Shown piece after piece: positions 49,795 to 57,164 of a stretch of DNA of 64,000 nucleotides (positions are counted from its first letter, which is position 1; every line of letters begins with the position of its first letter). This DNA is from Thermohalobaculum xanthum (GTDB taxonomy: Bacteria > Pseudomonadota > Alphaproteobacteria > Rhodobacterales > Rhodobacteraceae), in assembly GCF_016623495.1 (NCBI RefSeq), contig NZ_JAEHHL010000001.1:1-64000 (forward strand). The letters run 5' to 3'. The translations under genes and the position numbers were made by a program. The notes beneath the pieces were generated by a model. The model worked only from the letters and a program-made list of their open reading frames with translations, did no database searches and had not been told where the DNA came from.

Positions 49795-51348
49795 TCAGTA
49801 CCAGGCATCGGGCATTTCCGACTTGCGTCTGGCCACGAAGTCCTCCAGCGCCTCGCGGATCGCCTCGTCCATCGGCGGCGCCTCGTACTCGGCCAGCACC
49901 TGCTTCCAGCGACGGTTCGCGCGGGTCATCGCGTCTTCCGATCCGTTCTCGGACCAGGTCTCCCAGGGTTCGTTGTCGGCGGTCTGGCTGTCCCAGAAGG
50001 CGGTCTGATAGTGGCGCATCGTGTGGTCGCATCCCAGGAAATGCCCGCCGGGCTCGACCTCTTGGAAGGCGTCCATGGCCAGGGTGTCCTCGTTCACCAC
50101 CACGCCGGCCATGTAGCTGTGCAGCGCCCCGCACAAGTCGGCGTCGAGGATGAACTTCTCGTAGGACATCGACAGCAGTCCATCGAGGAAGCCGGCCGAG
50201 TGCAACAGGAAATTCGCACCGCAATGGATGGCCGAGAGCATCGACATCACGCTCTCGCCCATCGCCTGCGCGTCCGGCAGCTTCGAGTTCGAGAAGTTGC
50301 CCGCGCAGCGCAGCGGCAGCCCCGCGCGGCGCGCCAGCTGCCCCACGATCATCGATCCGATGGCGGGCTCGGGCGTCCCGAAGGTCGGCGAGCCCGAGCG
50401 CAGCGACATCGAGGACAGGAAGTTGCCGTAGATCGTCGGCGCACCCGGCCGCTCGAGCTGGGTGAGCGCGCAGCCCACCAGCGTCTCGGCATGGGCTTGG
50501 GCGATCGCGCCGGCCATCGTCACCGGCCCCATCGCGCCGCCCAGGATGAAGGGCACGATCACCGTCCCCTGGTTCGCTCGGGCATAGGCGCGGATCCCGG
50601 TGGTCATGGTCGCGTCCCAGACCAGCGGCGAGTTGACGTTGAAGTTGCCCATCACCACGCAGTTCTGCTCGGCGAACGCCGCGCCGAAGACGATCCGGGC
50701 CATCTCGACCGAGTCCACGACCCGCTCCTCGGCCGTGACCGAGCCGAGGAAGGCGCGGTCCGACAGCGTCAGATGCGCCAGCACCATGTCGAGGTGCCGC
50801 TTGTTCACCGGCACGTCGGTCGGTTCGCAGACCGTGCCGCCGGAGTGGTGCAGCCAGGGCGAAGAATAGGCGAGCTTCACGAAGTTCCGGAAATCCTCGA
50901 TGGTGCCGTAGCGCCGGCCGCGGTCGGCATCCATCACGAACGGCGAGCCATAAGACGGGGCCATCACCGTGTTGCGCCCGCCGATCACCACGGACCGGGC
51001 CGGGTTGCGGGCGTGTTGCGTGAACTCGCGGGGCGCCGTCTTCAGCACCTCGGCGACCAGGCCGCGGGGGAAGCGGATGCGCTCGCCCGAGACCTCGGCG
51101 CCGGCGGCGCGCCAGTGCTCGATCGCGGGGGCGTCGCCGCCCCGGAACTCGATTCCGACCTCCTCGAGGATCCGCGCGGCCGTGTCCTCGATCATCACCA
51201 GCGATTCCTCGGGCGCGACGTCGTAGGTCGGGATCGCGCGGGTGATGTAGGCCGGCCCGGCCGGCCCCGCGGCGCGGCTGTCGCGCCGGCGGGCGCGGGC
51301 CGAGGCGCCGCGGCCAGATCGTTCTGCGGTGTCGGGCGTGGGGGTCAT
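49795..51348 (-). CDS. MttB-family (non-pyrrolysine) trimethylamine/betaine methyltransferase
   Basis: A 517-aa TIM-barrel methyltransferase of the MttB superfamily. SYGSPFVMDADRGRRYGTIEDFRNFVKLAY, HHSGGTVCEPTDVP, MGNFNVNSPLVWD and YGNFLSSMSLRSGSP (in pieces) are typical. It has no in-frame UAG, so it belongs to the pyrrolysine-free MtgB-type branch, whose members demethylate glycine betaine, proline betaine, carnitine or similar compounds onto a corrinoid protein. The first 35 residues are a disordered Arg/Ala-rich tail. It opens the minus-strand run above the two flavin demethylases and is divergent from a LysR gene. No corrinoid protein gene is adjacent; the only one in the window is at 13358. 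Confidence 0.88.
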   Translation of the reverse strand: MTPTPDTAERSGRGASARARRRDSRAAGPAGPAYITRAIPTYDVAPEESLVMIEDTAARILEEVGIEFRGGDAPAIEHWRAAGAEVSGERIRFPRGLVAEVLKTAPREFTQHARNPARSVVIGGRNTVMAPSYGSPFVMDADRGRRYGTIEDFRNFVKLAYSSPWLHHSGGTVCEPTDVPVNKRHLDMVLAHLTLSDRAFLGSVTAEERVVDSVEMARIVFGAAFAEQNCVVMGNFNVNSPLVWDATMTTGIRAYARANQGTVIVPFILGGAMGPVTMAGAIAQAHAETLVGCALTQLERPGAPTIYGNFLSSMSLRSGSPTFGTPEPAIGSMIVGQLARRAGLPLRCAGNFSNSKLPDAQAMGESVMSMLSAIHCGANFLLHSAGFLDGLLSMSYEKFILDADLCGALHSYMAGVVVNEDTLAMDAFQEVEPGGHFLGCDHTMRHYQTAFWDSQTADNEPWETWSENGSEDAMTRANRRWKQVLAEYEAPPMDEAIREALEDFVARRKSEMPDAWY

Positions 51349-51467: not shown

Positions 51468-51482
51468 ATAAGCTCGGCTTAT
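51468..51482. promoter_or_regulatory. LysR-type operator overlapping the lysR start
   Basis: ATAAGC-TCG-GCTTAT: a perfect 6-bp dyad with a 3-bp centre, containing T-N11-A (51469 and 51481), the LysR-family recognition form. It overlaps the ATG at 51481 of the LysR gene and lies 120 bp from the divergent mttB-type start. Confidence 0.6.
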
Positions 51483-52389
51483 GCAACCGCTGCGCCAGAT
51501 CCTGCCTGTCGCGCGCCCGCTCGTCGTCTTCGAGGCGGCGGCGCGGCATCTGAGCTTCACCCGTGCGGCGGCCGAGCTTGGCATGACCCAGGCCGCTGTC
51601 AGCCTTGCGGTGCGCGCCCTCGAGGAACATCACGGCGTGCCGCTCTTCACCCGCCGCCATCGCGCCGTGGCGCTGACCGAGGCCGGGCGGCGGCTGCATG
51701 CGGACGTAGCGCTGGGGCTTGGCCATATCCGCAAGGGGATCGCGGAACTGGCGGCACTCGGCACCGACCGGCATGTGACGCTCTCGGCGTCGACGGCCTT
51801 CGCCAGCTTCTGGATGCTGCCGCGCCTGCCGCGGTTTCGCGAGGCAATGCCGGGCGTCGATCTGCGGATCCAGACCTCGGACCGTGATCTCGACATCCTT
51901 GCCGAGCGCCTGCCGCTGGCACTGCGAGGCGGCCAGCCCGGCGACTGGCCCGGATGCGAGAGCGCGCTGCTGGCCGAGGAGGAGATCGTGGCCATCGCCG
52001 CCCCCGCCTATCTGGACGCGCACGGCACGCCACCCAGCGACGCCGAGATCGCGCGGCACCGGCTGATCCATCTCGAGGAACCCTTCCGCCCGTGCCCGGA
52101 CTGGGACGACTGGTTCCGAGGAATCGGGGTGGCGCCTCCGTCGCGCTCCAGCGGGCTCCTGATCAACGACTACGTGCTGGTGGTGCAGGCGGTGCTTGCG
52201 GGGCAGGGGATCGCGCTGGGCTGGCGCCACCTTGTCGAGCCGATGCTGCGCGCGGGGCTCCTCGTCTGCGTCTCGCGCCATAGCCTGGCGACGGGTGCGG
52301 GCTTTCACGTCGTGTGGCCCGCGCGCTCCGAGGCCGACAGCACCGCTCTGAGGGTTCGCGACTGGATGCTGGGCGCCGGACTCCCGTGA
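51481..52389 (+). CDS. LysR family transcriptional regulator (GcvA-like)
   Basis: A 302-aa LysR-type regulator: N-terminal winged HTH (LVVFEAAARHLSFTRAAAELGMTQAAVSLAVRALEEHHGVPLFTRR, in pieces; residues about 12-65) and a two-lobed effector domain (VTLSASTAFASFWMLPRLPRF onward). It groups with GcvA-like regulators, which often govern glycine or amine metabolism. It diverges from the MttB-family methyltransferase and lies upstream of the XRE gene in the same direction (58-bp gap). The likely target is the methyltransferase-demethylase run; the effector is unknown. Confidence 0.88.
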   Translation: MQPLRQILPVARPLVVFEAAARHLSFTRAAAELGMTQAAVSLAVRALEEHHGVPLFTRRHRAVALTEAGRRLHADVALGLGHIRKGIAELAALGTDRHVTLSASTAFASFWMLPRLPRFREAMPGVDLRIQTSDRDLDILAERLPLALRGGQPGDWPGCESALLAEEEIVAIAAPAYLDAHGTPPSDAEIARHRLIHLEEPFRPCPDWDDWFRGIGVAPPSRSSGLLINDYVLVVQAVLAGQGIALGWRHLVEPMLRAGLLVCVSRHSLATGAGFHVVWPARSEADSTALRVRDWMLGAGLP

Positions 52390-52405
52390 TTGCCTGCGGC
52401 CATTT

Positions 52406-52421
52406 TTCCAATATACTGCAC
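52406..52421 (+). promoter_or_regulatory. Shared 16-bp motif, copy 1 (before the XRE-cupin gene)
   Basis: TTCCAATATACTGCAC at 52406-52421, 27 bp before the XRE start, in an otherwise GC-rich gap. It matches copy 2 (reverse strand at 53051-53066) at 14 of 16 positions. GATATGG follows about 10 bp later. Likely the binding site of the XRE regulator itself. Confidence 0.55.
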
Positions 52422-52447
52422 TTCGTTCGGGATATGGAGGCCGATAG

Positions 52448-53038
52448 ATGCCAAACGACCTTACGCCGCCCCCCGCGCTGGCGGAACTGGTGCGCCGCGC
52501 ACGCAAGCGGCAGGGATTGACGCTCGAGGGGCTTTCCGCGCTTTGCGGCGTGTCGAAGAGCATGCTGAGCCAGATCGAGCGCGGCGCCGTGAACCCGACC
52601 TTCACCACCGTCTGGAACATCACGCGGGCACTGGGGATCGACCTTGCCAGCGTCGAAGGGAGCCGTGCGGTCGAGAGCGCGATCGTGTGCACGCCGGGCT
52701 ATGCGACCCCGAGCATGGGGAGCGCTGACGGAAAATGCCGGTTGCGCGCGCTCAACCCGCTGCATACTGCATTGGCGATCGAGTGGTACGATTTCACCGC
52801 CGAGCCCGGTGGCGCCCAGGTCTCGCAGCCTCACCTCGCGGGCACGGTCGAGCACCTGACCTGCCTGACCGGCTGTCTCGAGGTCGAGGCGGGAGGCGTC
52901 GTCATGCGGGCCGAGACAGGCGACACCTTGCGCTATCGTGCTGACCGACCACACGCGATCCGCAATCCCGGAGACGGCGCGGCGCGCGCCCTTCTAGTCG
53001 TCGACATGAGTGGGCAGAGCGGGTCGGGAATCGGCTAG
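52448..53038 (+). CDS. XRE family regulator with C-terminal cupin domain
   Basis: A 196-aa two-domain regulator: HTH_3 at about 10-65 (LAELVRRARKRQGLTLEGLSALCGVSKSMLSQIERGAVNPTF, in pieces) and a cupin sensor domain at about 110-190 (HLAGTVEHLTCLTGCLEVEAGG). This layout (PuuR/HipB-SinR-cupin type) is common for regulators of amino acid and amine breakdown. It stands 51 bp before kbl-tdh in the same direction and shares a 16-bp motif with the kbl promoter, so it most likely controls threonine degradation and its own expression. Confidence 0.88.
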   Translation: MPNDLTPPPALAELVRRARKRQGLTLEGLSALCGVSKSMLSQIERGAVNPTFTTVWNITRALGIDLASVEGSRAVESAIVCTPGYATPSMGSADGKCRLRALNPLHTALAIEWYDFTAEPGGAQVSQPHLAGTVEHLTCLTGCLEVEAGGVVMRAETGDTLRYRADRPHAIRNPGDGAARALLVVDMSGQSGSGIG

Positions 53039-53050
53039 ACAGCCGCAATT

Positions 53051-53079
53051 GTGCGCTATATTGGAAGTCATACGATATA
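53051..53079. promoter_or_regulatory. Shared 16-bp motif, copy 2, with dyad (before kbl)
   Basis: GTGCGCTATATTGGAA (53051-53066) is the reverse complement of the copy before the XRE gene except at two bases. It also forms CTATAT...ATATAG (53056-53061 with 53074-53079, 12-bp spacer), overlapping what must be the kbl promoter, 11-39 bp before the start. Confidence 0.58.
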
Positions 53080-53089
53080 GGGGAAAGCG

Positions 53090-54277
53090 ATGCCTGATGA
53101 CCTCATAACACACACTTCGGAAGCCCTCGGCCGCATCGAGGCGGAGGGGCTGACAAAGCGCGAGCGCGAGATCGTCTCGGCCCAGTCGTCACATGTGCGC
53201 GTGGGCGATGCCGACTACCTCAATTTCTGCGCCAACAACTATCTCGGGTTGGCCGATCATCCGCGGCTGAAGGCCGCCGCCAAGGCCGCGATCGACAGCC
53301 ACGGTCTGGGCATGGCCTCGGTGCGGTTCATCTGCGGCACCCAGGACCTGCATCACCGGCTCGAGAAACGGCTGGCGGGGTTCCTGGGCACCGAGGACGC
53401 GATCCTGTTCGCGTCGTGCTTCGACGCCAATGCGGGCGTCTTCGAAGCGCTTCTGGGGCCCGAGGACGCGATCATCTCGGACGCGCTCAACCATGCCTCG
53501 ATCATCGATGGCGTGCGGCTGTGCAAGGCGCGCCGCCTGCGCTATGCGAACAATGACATGGCCGAGCTCGAGGCCCGGCTGGTCGAGGCCGCCGATGCGC
53601 GGCACAGGTTGATCGTCACCGATGGCGTGTTCTCGATGGACGGGATCATCGCCAACCTTCCCGCGATCTGCGATCTCGCCGAGAAGCACGGCGCGATGGT
53701 GATGGTCGATGACAGCCACGCCGTGGGCTTCGTCGGCCCCCATGGCGCCGGAACGCCCGATCACTGGGGCGTGCGCGAGCGGGTGCAGCTTCTCTCGGGC
53801 ACCTTCGGCAAGGCGCTGGGCGGCGCCGCGGGGGGCTATATCGCGGGACCGCGCCCGCTGGTCGAGATGCTGCGCCAGAGGGCGCGGCCGTATCTGTTCT
53901 CGAATGCCCTGCCGCCGGCCATCGTCGCCGCGACCCTCGAGGCGCTGACCATGGTCGAGGAGGACGCGACGCTGCGCGAGCGGCTGGCCGTGAATGCCCA
54001 ACGCTTCCGCGCCGGAATGGAAAAGGCGGGCTTCGATCTTATCCCCGGCGAGCATCCCATCATCCCCGTGATGCTGGGGGATGCGCGGCTCGCGCAGGAT
54101 TTCGCGGCCGAGATGATGAAGGAAGGGATCTTCGTCACCGCCTTCTCGTTCCCCGTGGTGCCGCGCGGGCTCGCGCGCATCCGCACGCAGATGTCGGCGG
54201 CCCATAGCGCCGCGGACATCGACCGCGCCATCGCGGGCTTCACGGCCGTCGGCCGCAGGCTGGGAGTGATCGCATGA
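53090..54277 (+). CDS. kbl: Glycine C-acetyltransferase (2-amino-3-ketobutyrate CoA ligase)
   Basis: A 395-aa PLP enzyme of the alpha-oxoamine synthase family. It cleaves 2-amino-3-oxobutanoate with CoA to glycine and acetyl-CoA, the second step of threonine breakdown. The PLP lysine is K241 in [23 protein letters not shown] carries the PLP Asp and [16 protein letters not shown] is the family opening. Start with GGGGAAAG upstream. It overlaps tdh by the 4-bp ATGA (54274-54277), a classic coupled pair. In this locus it would feed glycine into one-carbon metabolism. Confidence 0.96.
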
Positions 54278-55296
54278 AAGCCCTCGTGAAGGCCGAGGAC
54301 GCGCCGGGCCTGGTCCTGCGCGACGTCGAGAAGCCGGTGCCGGGCCCGGGCGACGTGCTGATCCGCGTCAAACGCGCCTCGATCTGCGGCACCGACATGC
54401 ATATCTGGAAATGGGACGACTGGGCGCGCAAGACGGTGCCCGTTCCGATGGTCGTGGGCCACGAATACATGGGCGTCGTCGAGGCGAACGGGCCCGGCGC
54501 GAATGCGACCATCGGCGCGCGGGTGTCGGGCGAGGGACACATCCCCTGCGGCCATTGCCGCAACTGCCTTTCCGGGCGCGCCCATATCTGCGCCCAGACC
54601 AAGGGCATCGGCGTGAACCGGCAGGGCGCATTCGCCGAGTGGGTCGTGATCCCCGAAGCCAACCTGCGCCCGCTGCCCGACAGCATTCCCGACGAGATCG
54701 CGGCGATCCTCGACCCGCTGGGCAACGCGGTGCACACTGCGCTGGCCTTCGATCTGGTGGGCGAGGACGTGCTGATAACCGGTGCCGGGCCGATCGGCTG
54801 CATGGCCGCGGCCGTATGCCGGCATGTCGGCGCGCACCACGTGGTCGTCACCGACATCAACGACGCCCGCCTGCGGCTGGCCGAGCAGATGGGCGCGACC
54901 CGCGGCGTGCGCGCCGACCGCGAGGATCTGCGCGACGTGATGCGTGCGCTTGGCATGCGCGAAGGCTTTGATGTCGGGCTCGAGATGTCGGGCGCCGAGG
55001 CCGCGCTCGACGCGATGATCGGGGCCATGATCACCGGCGGCAAGGTCGCGTTGCTGGGGCTCTTTGCAAAGCGCCCGGCGATCGACCTCAACACCGCGAT
55101 CTTCAAGGGCCTGACCTTCGAGGGCATCTACGGCCGCAAGATGTACGAGACGTGGCACAAGATGCTGGCGATGCTCGAGTCCGGCCTCGACGTGAGCCCG
55201 GTCATCTCGCACCGGCTTGCCTTCGAGGACTTCGCGCAGGGCTTCGAGGCCGTGTCGCGGGGCGAGGCGAACAAGGTCGTGCTCGAGGTGGCCTAA
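54274..55296 (+). CDS. tdh: L-threonine 3-dehydrogenase
   Basis: A 340-aa zinc-containing medium-chain dehydrogenase that oxidises L-threonine to 2-amino-3-oxobutanoate with NAD. The catalytic zinc Cys is C38 in [15 protein letters not shown]. Structural Zn cysteines lie in [16 protein letters not shown], and the NAD Rossmann region is [15 protein letters not shown]. Coupled to kbl. No gene follows directly in this direction except the cyclase after 74 bp, so the kbl-tdh pair is probably the whole threonine operon. Confidence 0.95.
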
Positions 55297-55370: not shown

Positions 55371-57164
55371 GTGGAACGCAAGCTCGCCGTGATCCTCGCG
55401 GCCGATGTCGCTGGTTTCAGCCGTCTCGTGTCGCAGGACGAGGAAGGGACGCTTGCGACCCTCGCCACCTGCCGCGCGACGATCGCGGAGCTGGTCGGCG
55501 AGCATAGCGGGCGCATCTTCGGGTCGGCCGGTGACAGCCTTGTCGCCGAGTTCACGAGCGCGGTGCTGGGGGTGCGCGCGGCTGTCGCGATCCAGCGCGC
55601 GATGCACCGGCGCAATGCCGACCTCCCGCGCGAGCGGCGCGTCGAGTTCCGCATCGGGCTCAATCTCGGCGACGTGGTGGTCGATGGCGGCGACCTTCTG
55701 GGCGACGGCGTCAACGTCGCGGCACGATTGCAGGAGATTGCCGAACCCGCGGGCATCTGCATCTCGGCGGCATTGCGCGACCAGGTCGAGGGCAAGCTGA
55801 ATTTTCCACTCGCGCCGGCGGGCGAGCGGCGGCTGAAGAACATCCCCCGCCCGGTGCAGCTCTGCCATGTCGAGTGGCGCCGCGACGACGGGGCGGCTCG
55901 CGCCGGCTCGGATACGCAGCCCGGACTGCCGGACAAGCCCTCGATCGCCGTCTTGCCCTTCGTGAACATGTCGGGCGACCCCGAGCAGGAGTTCTTTGCC
56001 GACGGCCTCACCGAGGACATCATCACCGCGCTGTCGCGCTACCGCTGGTTCTTCGTGATCGCGCGGAATTCGAGCTTCACCTACAAGGGCCGCGCCATCG
56101 ATGTGAAGCAGATCGCCCGCGAACTTGGGGTGCGCTACGTCCTCGAGGGCAGCGTCCGCAAGGCCGGCGGGCGCGTGCGGGTCACGGGCCAGCTGATCGA
56201 GGCCGGCAGCGGCGTGCATCTCTGGGCGCAGCGCCACGACCGCGACTACTCGGACATATTCGCGATTCAGGACGAGCTGACGCAGGCGGTGGTCGCGGCC
56301 ATCGAGCCCGAGATCCTGATGGGCGAGGGCCGCCGTGCCGTGCACCGGCCGACCGAGCGGCTCGACGCCTATGAATGCTGCATGCGCGGGATGTGGCACC
56401 ACTACCAGATCGAGGACGCTCAGATCTCCGAGGGCATCCGCTGGCAGCGCCGCGCGATCGCACTCGATCCGGGGTTCAGCCGGGCGCACATGGCGCTGGC
56501 GCGGGCGCTTGCCTCGCGGATCGCGTTCGGATTCAGCCCCGCGGTCGAGGAGGATGTCGCCGAGTTGACCGCGGCCGCCGAGCGGGCGTTGGTGCTCGAT
56601 GATCGAGACCCCTATTGCCACTACGCCCTGTTCACCGCGCGGTTCGTCGCGCTCAGGTTCGACGAGGCGCTGGCGGCGGCGCAGAAGGCGATCGATCTCA
56701 ACCCGAACTTCGCTTTCGGCCATTTCGGGCTCGGCTGGCTGCGGGTCGCCATGGGCCGGTTCGCCGAGGCGATCGAGCCCCTGCGGACCGGGATGCGGCT
56801 GAGCCCTCACGAACCGCTGACCTTCCACTTCATGGGCCGCATGGCCCTGGCGCATTACGGCCTCGGGCACTATGCCGAGGCCGTCGACTGCGCGCGCGCC
56901 GCACTCGCCAGTCGCCGTGTTCATCCGACCCTCGTGACGCTGCTCGCCTGCCTCGGTCAGGTCGGCGCAGAGGACGAGGCGGCGGCTCTTCTGCCCGAGA
57001 TCGCGGCGACCGCCCCGGCCGATGCCGCGCATTACTGGCCCGTGGTGTTCCCCTATGCCGATCCGCGCCACCGCGCGCATTTCCTGGACGGGCTGCGGAA
57101 GGGCGGCCTGCCGCCCGAGGCCCTGCGCGAGGCCGAGGGTGCCGCATCCGGTGTCGGGAACTGA
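55371..57164 (+). CDS. Class III adenylate/guanylate cyclase with TolB-like and TPR regions (paralogue 2)
   Basis: A 597-aa protein, paralogous to the one at 37808 over its whole length. It has an N-terminal cyclase domain (VILAADVAGFSRLVSQDEEGT with D12, SAGDSLVAEF, GVNVAARLQEIAEPAG), a TolB-like part (KPSIAVLPFVNMSGDPEQEFFADGLTEDIITALSRYRWFFVIARNSSF, in pieces) and TPR repeats to the end. A GTG start (55371) gives the standard MERKLAVILAADVAG opening; no in-frame ATG lies nearby. It probably produces cAMP from ATP; partner and output unknown. It lies 74 bp after tdh, same strand. Confidence 0.9.
   Translation: MERKLAVILAADVAGFSRLVSQDEEGTLATLATCRATIAELVGEHSGRIFGSAGDSLVAEFTSAVLGVRAAVAIQRAMHRRNADLPRERRVEFRIGLNLGDVVVDGGDLLGDGVNVAARLQEIAEPAGICISAALRDQVEGKLNFPLAPAGERRLKNIPRPVQLCHVEWRRDDGAARAGSDTQPGLPDKPSIAVLPFVNMSGDPEQEFFADGLTEDIITALSRYRWFFVIARNSSFTYKGRAIDVKQIARELGVRYVLEGSVRKAGGRVRVTGQLIEAGSGVHLWAQRHDRDYSDIFAIQDELTQAVVAAIEPEILMGEGRRAVHRPTERLDAYECCMRGMWHHYQIEDAQISEGIRWQRRAIALDPGFSRAHMALARALASRIAFGFSPAVEEDVAELTAAAERALVLDDRDPYCHYALFTARFVALRFDEALAAAQKAIDLNPNFAFGHFGLGWLRVAMGRFAEAIEPLRTGMRLSPHEPLTFHFMGRMALAHYGLGHYAEAVDCARAALASRRVHPTLVTLLACLGQVGAEDEAAALLPEIAATAPADAAHYWPVVFPYADPRHRAHFLDGLRKGGLPPEALREAEGAASGVGN

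Follow-up and report, generated by a model that had tools for sequence, protein, structure and literature searches.

In Escherichia coli the tdh-kbl operon is under the control of Lrp. The layout of an XRE domain plus a cupin domain is found in PuuR, the repressor of putrescine utilisation. In Pseudomonas, XRE-cupin factors including PauR, PsdR, ErfA, and PA0535 are reported to inhibit the genes next to them and to have palindromic motifs; their genes usually adjoin the metabolic genes they control, and some of the factors are self-controlled (Trouillon et al., 2021; PMC7901475). According to that paper, the three consensus sequences determined were quite unlike each other, and many members of the XRE-cupin family are uncharacterised (Trouillon et al., 2021).

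Here we describe a locus of Thermohalobaculum xanthum in which a XRE-cupin gene precedes kbl and tdh. It lies in a stretch of 64,000 nucleotides (NZ_JAEHHL010000001.1, positions 1 to 64,000), referred to as the window. The regulator has the same two domains as the Pseudomonas factors and, like them, adjoins metabolic genes and is accompanied by palindromic sites. In contrast to the system described here, kbl does not occur in the text of the Pseudomonas paper (PMC7901475), and the palindrome consensus of kbl-tdh was derived anew. Lrp of E. coli has the same target operon but is an unrelated global regulator, whereas the window would have a dedicated local one. The putrescine pathway of PuuR differs from threonine breakdown, and the PuuR model NF007408 aligned to residues 15-180 of the regulator but reached just 23.2 bits, far below its cut-off of 211; identity as a PuuR orthologue was therefore rejected. 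The best sequence match among solved structures was PDB 1y9q, a HTH_3-family transcriptional regulator listed without function or DNA site (E 5.4e-32, profile positions 1-166 of 175).

A reading of the DNA made earlier from the sequence alone (the sequence-only reading) had proposed a link between the XRE-cupin regulator and threonine breakdown that it had not seen described. In agreement with this, no description of a XRE-cupin regulator of kbl-tdh was found among the matches listed from the open-licence full-text literature (titles and abstract openings). XRE-cupin proteins are already known as local metabolic repressors, and the predicted operator for kbl-tdh is new within that kind.

Gene Content and Order

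The genes of the locus are:

51481-52389, same direction as the three genes below: LysR-type gene, directly upstream of the XRE-cupin gene
52448-53038, plus: XRE-cupin regulator gene, 196 amino acids, HTH_3 at residues 15-67 and Cupin_2 at residues 117-184 (alignment A1)
53090-54277, plus: kbl, glycine C-acetyltransferase (2-amino-3-ketobutyrate CoA ligase)
54274-55296, plus: tdh, L-threonine 3-dehydrogenase, sharing 4 bases with kbl at the kbl stop

The regulator was found to have the XRE-cupin layout with both Pfam domains above cut-off (HTH_3 52.5 bits, cut-off 23; Cupin_2 38.7 bits, cut-off 27.2). Kbl (NF005394, 631.5 bits, cut-off 460) and Tdh (NF003808, 515.2 bits, cut-off 380) were both above the NCBIfam cut-offs for a kbl-tdh threonine-breakdown operon, while Tdh narrowly missed the second tdh model TIGR00692 (438.3 against 458.35). 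The LysR gene was also kept upstream in Limibaculum sediminis, the congener now named Thermohalobaculum sediminis (locus L034, identical to L135 as the coordinates agree).

The flanks of the locus carry two further genes. A full-length MTTB-family (trimethylamine methyltransferase-like) protein is encoded at 49795-51348 on the minus strand, divergent from the LysR gene; it scored 763 bits with Pfam MTTB and was under the TIGR02369 cut-off (262.6 against 525). Just past tdh, at 55371-57164 on the plus strand, one protein combines an adenylate/guanylate cyclase-like domain with TPR repeats.

Predicted Operators in the Window

The sites considered at the two promoters are:

52390-52417, plus: promoter-like site before the XRE-cupin gene, TTGCCT, 16 nt, TATACT, recognised by consensus match only (9 of 12)
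52406-52421, plus: predicted operator O1 of the XRE-cupin gene, the first copy of the sequence-only reading, TTCCAATATACTGCAC, overlapping the -10 box
52430-52439, plus: GGATATGGAG, the proposed second half at the XRE-cupin gene, overlapping the ribosome-binding-like GGAGG at 52436-52440
53051-53066: predicted operator O2 of kbl-tdh, GTGCGCTATATTGGAA on the plus strand (TTCCAATATAGCGCAC on the minus strand, 53066-53051)
53070-53085: predicted operator O3 of kbl-tdh, ATACGATATAGGGGAA, 19 bp from O2 and extending to the ribosome-binding region

The sequence-only reading had placed two copies of one 16-mer at 52406-52421 (plus) and 53066-53051 (minus), and we confirmed the positions as well as the identity of 14 of 16 bases between TTCCAATATACTGCAC and TTCCAATATAGCGCAC. 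Allowing up to three mismatches, these two matches were the only ones in the window. Shuffled windows had a mean of 0.65 matches at three mismatches and reached two in 14 of 100 cases, so that the 16-mer pair alone is weak evidence. At up to two mismatches in the 4.05-Mb genome, both 16-mers were the sole zero-mismatch matches to TTCCAATATANNGCAC, with one further place at two mismatches. Both copies hold TATA-like -10 boxes, which together with the shuffled windows speaks for AT-rich promoter elements that resemble each other by chance. At the level of sequence comparison, the evidence beyond chance comes from relatives.

In the window's family the element was found to be a 16-bp palindrome, WTCCGnnATnnCGGAW; the plain asymmetric 16-mer was rejected as the motif, since relatives show a palindrome. 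The shuffles run alongside this family-locus motif analysis preserve base composition only. The consensus of the matrix from other families is TTCCAATATATTGGAA. When inverted 4-mers were counted de novo, TTCC-N8-GGAA was the commonest arm pair, present in 34 of 137 upstream regions of 77 named loci among the matches listed. All of these loci save one are outside the window's family or unplaced; the exception, L197, is a Paracoccus of the Paracoccaceae, which is the congener's NCBI family too, and once this sole Paracoccus locus was removed the arm pair was found in 33 of 135 regions. Hoeflea poritis has TTCCAATATACTGGAA before kbl. In L. sediminis, O1 aligned with TTCCTATATATTGGAC at -42 from the XRE-cupin gene, the same distance as in the window, and two kbl sites are located 19 bp apart, like O2 and O3. 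Each window site retains one good arm only and is a copy of the palindrome with the other arm decayed; in TTCCAATATACTGCAC the right arm is the decayed one. The proposed motif is thus a conserved element, although in the form of a palindrome rather than a plain 16-mer, and with two copies at kbl.

Two matrices were used for scoring. The family matrix was built from 203 sites of other genera in the window's family, with the window and its congener L034 left out of training. It ranked positions 53070, 53051, and 52406 as 1st, 5th, and 9th of the 63,985 positions in the window. The other-family matrix, without Paracoccus (76 loci, 135 regions), ranked 52406, 53051, and 53070 as 1st, 2nd, and 3rd, with 17.3, 14.7, and 13.8 bits against 9.0 for the next position. 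With the Paracoccus locus retained the scores were 17.5, 15.1, and 14.0 bits, the next position having 9.1; the three ranks were still the same when 16 loosely named MAG loci were removed in addition (60 loci, 106 regions). The loci L135, L140, and L175 (L034, L005, and L006, respectively) were left out of the second matrix, yet are among the 80 named loci. Of 1000 symmetric permutations of each matrix, 2 for the family matrix and 10 for the other-family matrix ranked no fewer than three spacer positions among the ten best, because the spacers are AT-rich. Chance would thus equal the result at these rates, whereas the ranks 1-3 with the other-family matrix argue against it.

The sequence-only reading had also placed a second AT-rich half near each copy. 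This was borne out at kbl, where O3 lies 19 bp from O2. At the XRE-cupin gene it was not: starts 52422-52432 had a negative best score with both matrices (-1.6 and -5.9), and a second operator was rejected there. GGATATGGAG is more likely a ribosome-binding region than an operator.

Conservation of the Locus

The regulator had matches at E ≤ 1e-15 in 71 of 198 family genomes, 68 of which, including the window's genome, were at E < 1e-28 and are termed the main XRE orthologue. While kbl was present in 110 of the 198 genomes, it was matched in 67 of the 68 genomes with the main orthologue; the kbl start of the 68th (G147) is cut by a contig end. Synteny was conserved: kbl was located within 400 bp of the XRE-cupin gene in 59 of 69 loci (the 68 and the congener), downstream on the same strand in 58 and divergent in L006. 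In the window's genus, kbl was found in five of five genomes and the regulator in two of five. Before loci were counted, L001-L003 were left out as matches of the motif itself, and L016-L017 were replaced by the longer L073-L074; alignment A1 was made without L012.

When named genomes were scanned with the same alignment A1, a sample of at least 80 loci was obtained, including L. sediminis, Maritalea, Hoeflea, Rhizobium, Agrobacterium, Mesorhizobium, Kiloniella, Kordiimonas, and the betaproteobacterial Pandoraea.

The seven Pandoraea loci (L174, L189, L194, L196, L201, L208, and L210) hold close XRE-cupin relatives preceded by palindromes, along with a kbl-like gene (54-55% identity) in divergent orientation; tdh was not found within them. 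Ten ORFs near the XRE-cupin gene in five named loci were scanned against NCBIfam. In Sneathiella sedimenti (L179) this revealed genes in the order tdh-kbl, divergent from the XRE-cupin gene and below the 45% identity threshold, with a glycerate 2-kinase-like gene, under that model's cut-off, on the other side. The scanned ORFs of Kiloniella L155 (a FtrA-like regulator and one unmatched) and Alcaligenaceae L167 (a MlaE-like permease and one unmatched) had no link to threonine by NCBIfam, and those of L174 and L142 had no NCBIfam match at E 1e-40.

Occurrence of the kbl Site Relative to the Regulator

We determined the best family-matrix score in the up to 150 bp before kbl, with a threshold of 10 bits. 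L014, where kbl and tdh precede the XRE-cupin gene and the kbl start is outside the locus, was left out. Where the XRE-cupin gene was within 400 bp, 58 of 59 genomes had a site; 57 of the 59 kbl regions had served in training of the matrix, those of the window and the congener not. Where the gene lay 1.3-1.5 kb off or in another part of the genome, all nine genomes had a site; these nine kbl promoters were outside training, though XRE upstream regions of the same genomes were used. Only one of 43 genomes with kbl but without the main orthologue had a site, and in this sole exception, L108, a divergent XRE gene (34% identity) adjoins kbl. A weaker XRE relative (E about 1e-19) is present in two of these 43 genomes, G086 and G170, neither of which has a kbl site.

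The other-family matrix at 8 bits or more gave 55 of 57 genomes with the XRE-cupin gene adjacent, 9 of 9 with it further off, and 3 of 43 without the main orthologue. With Paracoccus included, 54 of 57 XRE-adjacent genomes had a site, and without Paracoccus and the 16 MAG loci the counts were 56/57, 9/9, and 3/43. The three of 43, as listed for the matrix containing Paracoccus, are L108 and the AT-rich L101 and L110. The kbl paralogues L090 and L091, from the XRE genomes G188 and G186, respectively, had no site before them. Contrary to the proposed link, no kbl site was found in L005, whose XRE (52% identical) is the closest in the family set beyond the genus. Among the congeners lacking the regulator, L259, likewise contrary to the link, has a GC-rich palindrome with 14.2 bits in the family matrix against only 4.5 in the other matrix, the second scorable one had no site, and L261 was left out as its kbl start lies beyond the contig.

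Of the 80 named loci among the matches listed, 63 have kbl with more than 45% identity. With the family matrix, a site precedes kbl in 52 of these 63, and in 62 a site precedes kbl or the XRE-cupin gene; by comparison, 42 of 800 random 162-bp pieces of named loci reach the threshold. This, together with the presence and absence of the site tracking the regulator, leaves chance similarity of promoter elements with a next to negligible probability.

The sequence-only reading had taken absence of the motif before kbl in relatives keeping the XRE-cupin gene as evidence against its proposal. No such general absence was found, and the predicted operator linking the regulator to kbl-tdh was upheld at the sequence level by the motif before kbl tracking the orthologue.

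The sites could belong to another regulator, either the adjacent LysR/GcvA-like protein or Lrp, the XRE-cupin gene being a mere neighbour. The LysR gene directly upstream and its retention in L. sediminis agree with this, as does the control of E. coli tdh-kbl by Lrp. However, the sites follow the XRE-cupin gene even when it is away from kbl (9/9) and are nearly always absent without the main orthologue. The usual box of LysR regulators is T-N11-A, and the 16-bp palindrome of the kbl-tdh kind is unlike it. Another regulator is therefore very unlikely.

A genome-wide regulon was rejected as well. The window's own genome holds 30 places with the loose palindrome, three of them the sites described here, and 28 with its reversed version as control. 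Most genomes have only a few exact family palindromes (0 to 13), which are also seen in genomes without the XRE-cupin gene.

Position and Number of Sites

The sites O2 and O3 are located at -39 and -20 from the kbl start codon. When sites of 9 bits or more were counted, two to four were present in 57 of 66 family kbl promoters, and the step from one kbl site to the next is 15-16 or 19-20 bp in 105 of 132 cases. These regular steps suggest that loading may be cooperative.

Four-copy arrays with steps of about 20, 15-16, and 20 bp were seen at the kbl promoters of L073, L083, L085, and L089.

The -10 hexamer of the promoter-like site of the XRE-cupin gene (52412-52417) falls within O1, and L. 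sediminis was seen by eye to retain TTGCGG, 16 nt, TATATT before the gene. Self-control, which the sequence-only reading had assumed, is likely in the window's genome. It is clade-dependent and not general, because a site of 10 bits or more within -80 to +25 of the start was present in 38 of 67 family XRE genes and lacking in 29, the window and L034 being left out of this count. In 35 loci a site was found at or just before the homology-predicted XRE start, 33 of them with ATG at the palindrome centre, and in 30 of the 35 TTGAC is located 35-37 bases before the central A. From this arrangement a leaderless message would be expected, and in those family loci the operator probably spans the start of a leaderless XRE mRNA. 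The window differs, as O1 is located over the -10 box of TTGCCT-16-TATACT.

Palindromes centred on the XRE start codon, such as TTCCGTCATGACGGAA, were observed in L010, L011, L018, L019, L029, L030, L053, L069, and others.

Alternatively, the XRE-cupin protein might bind the sites and repress itself but activate kbl-tdh, e.g., with threonine. Many family kbl promoters have several sites, some at -75 to -100 from the start codon, which is a feasible position for an activator. Against this stand the window sites at -39 and -20, O1 over the -10 box, and the description of the studied Pseudomonas XRE-cupin factors as inhibitors (PMC7901475). Activation is therefore unlikely, and the operator positions are compatible with repression of the neighbouring genes.

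Proposed Regulation of kbl-tdh

The motif is present and conserved, and it co-occurs with the regulator; predicted palindromic sites are located at the promoter of the target operon. Very probably, the XRE-cupin protein has the motif as its operator and would repress itself and kbl-tdh until a small molecule fills the cupin pocket. By analogy with the Pseudomonas factors (PMC7901475), a dimer would bind the 16-bp palindrome TTCCnnTATAnnGGAA and repress. Occupation of O1 would cover the -10 box of the gene's own promoter, and occupation of O2-O3 the promoter region of kbl-tdh together with its ribosome-binding region; repression of both is most likely from these positions. Binding in the cupin pocket of a ligand that may come from threonine or glycine metabolism would release the repression.

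More tentatively, threonine breakdown in much of the Alphaproteobacteria might have this XRE-cupin protein as its dedicated regulator, inherited together with kbl-tdh. The protein might then silence its own leaderless mRNA through the ATG-centred palindrome in part of the window's family, and form a cooperative switch at kbl on two to five operators phased in steps of 15-16 and 19-20 bp.

Altogether, the regulator beside kbl in many Alphaproteobacteria gains a specific predicted function, operator, and target operon, and the XRE-cupin family a well-supported predicted regulon. The site matrix locates the regulator's target from sequence. These observations suggest a local switch devoted to threonine breakdown, a source of glycine and acetyl-CoA, in these bacteria.
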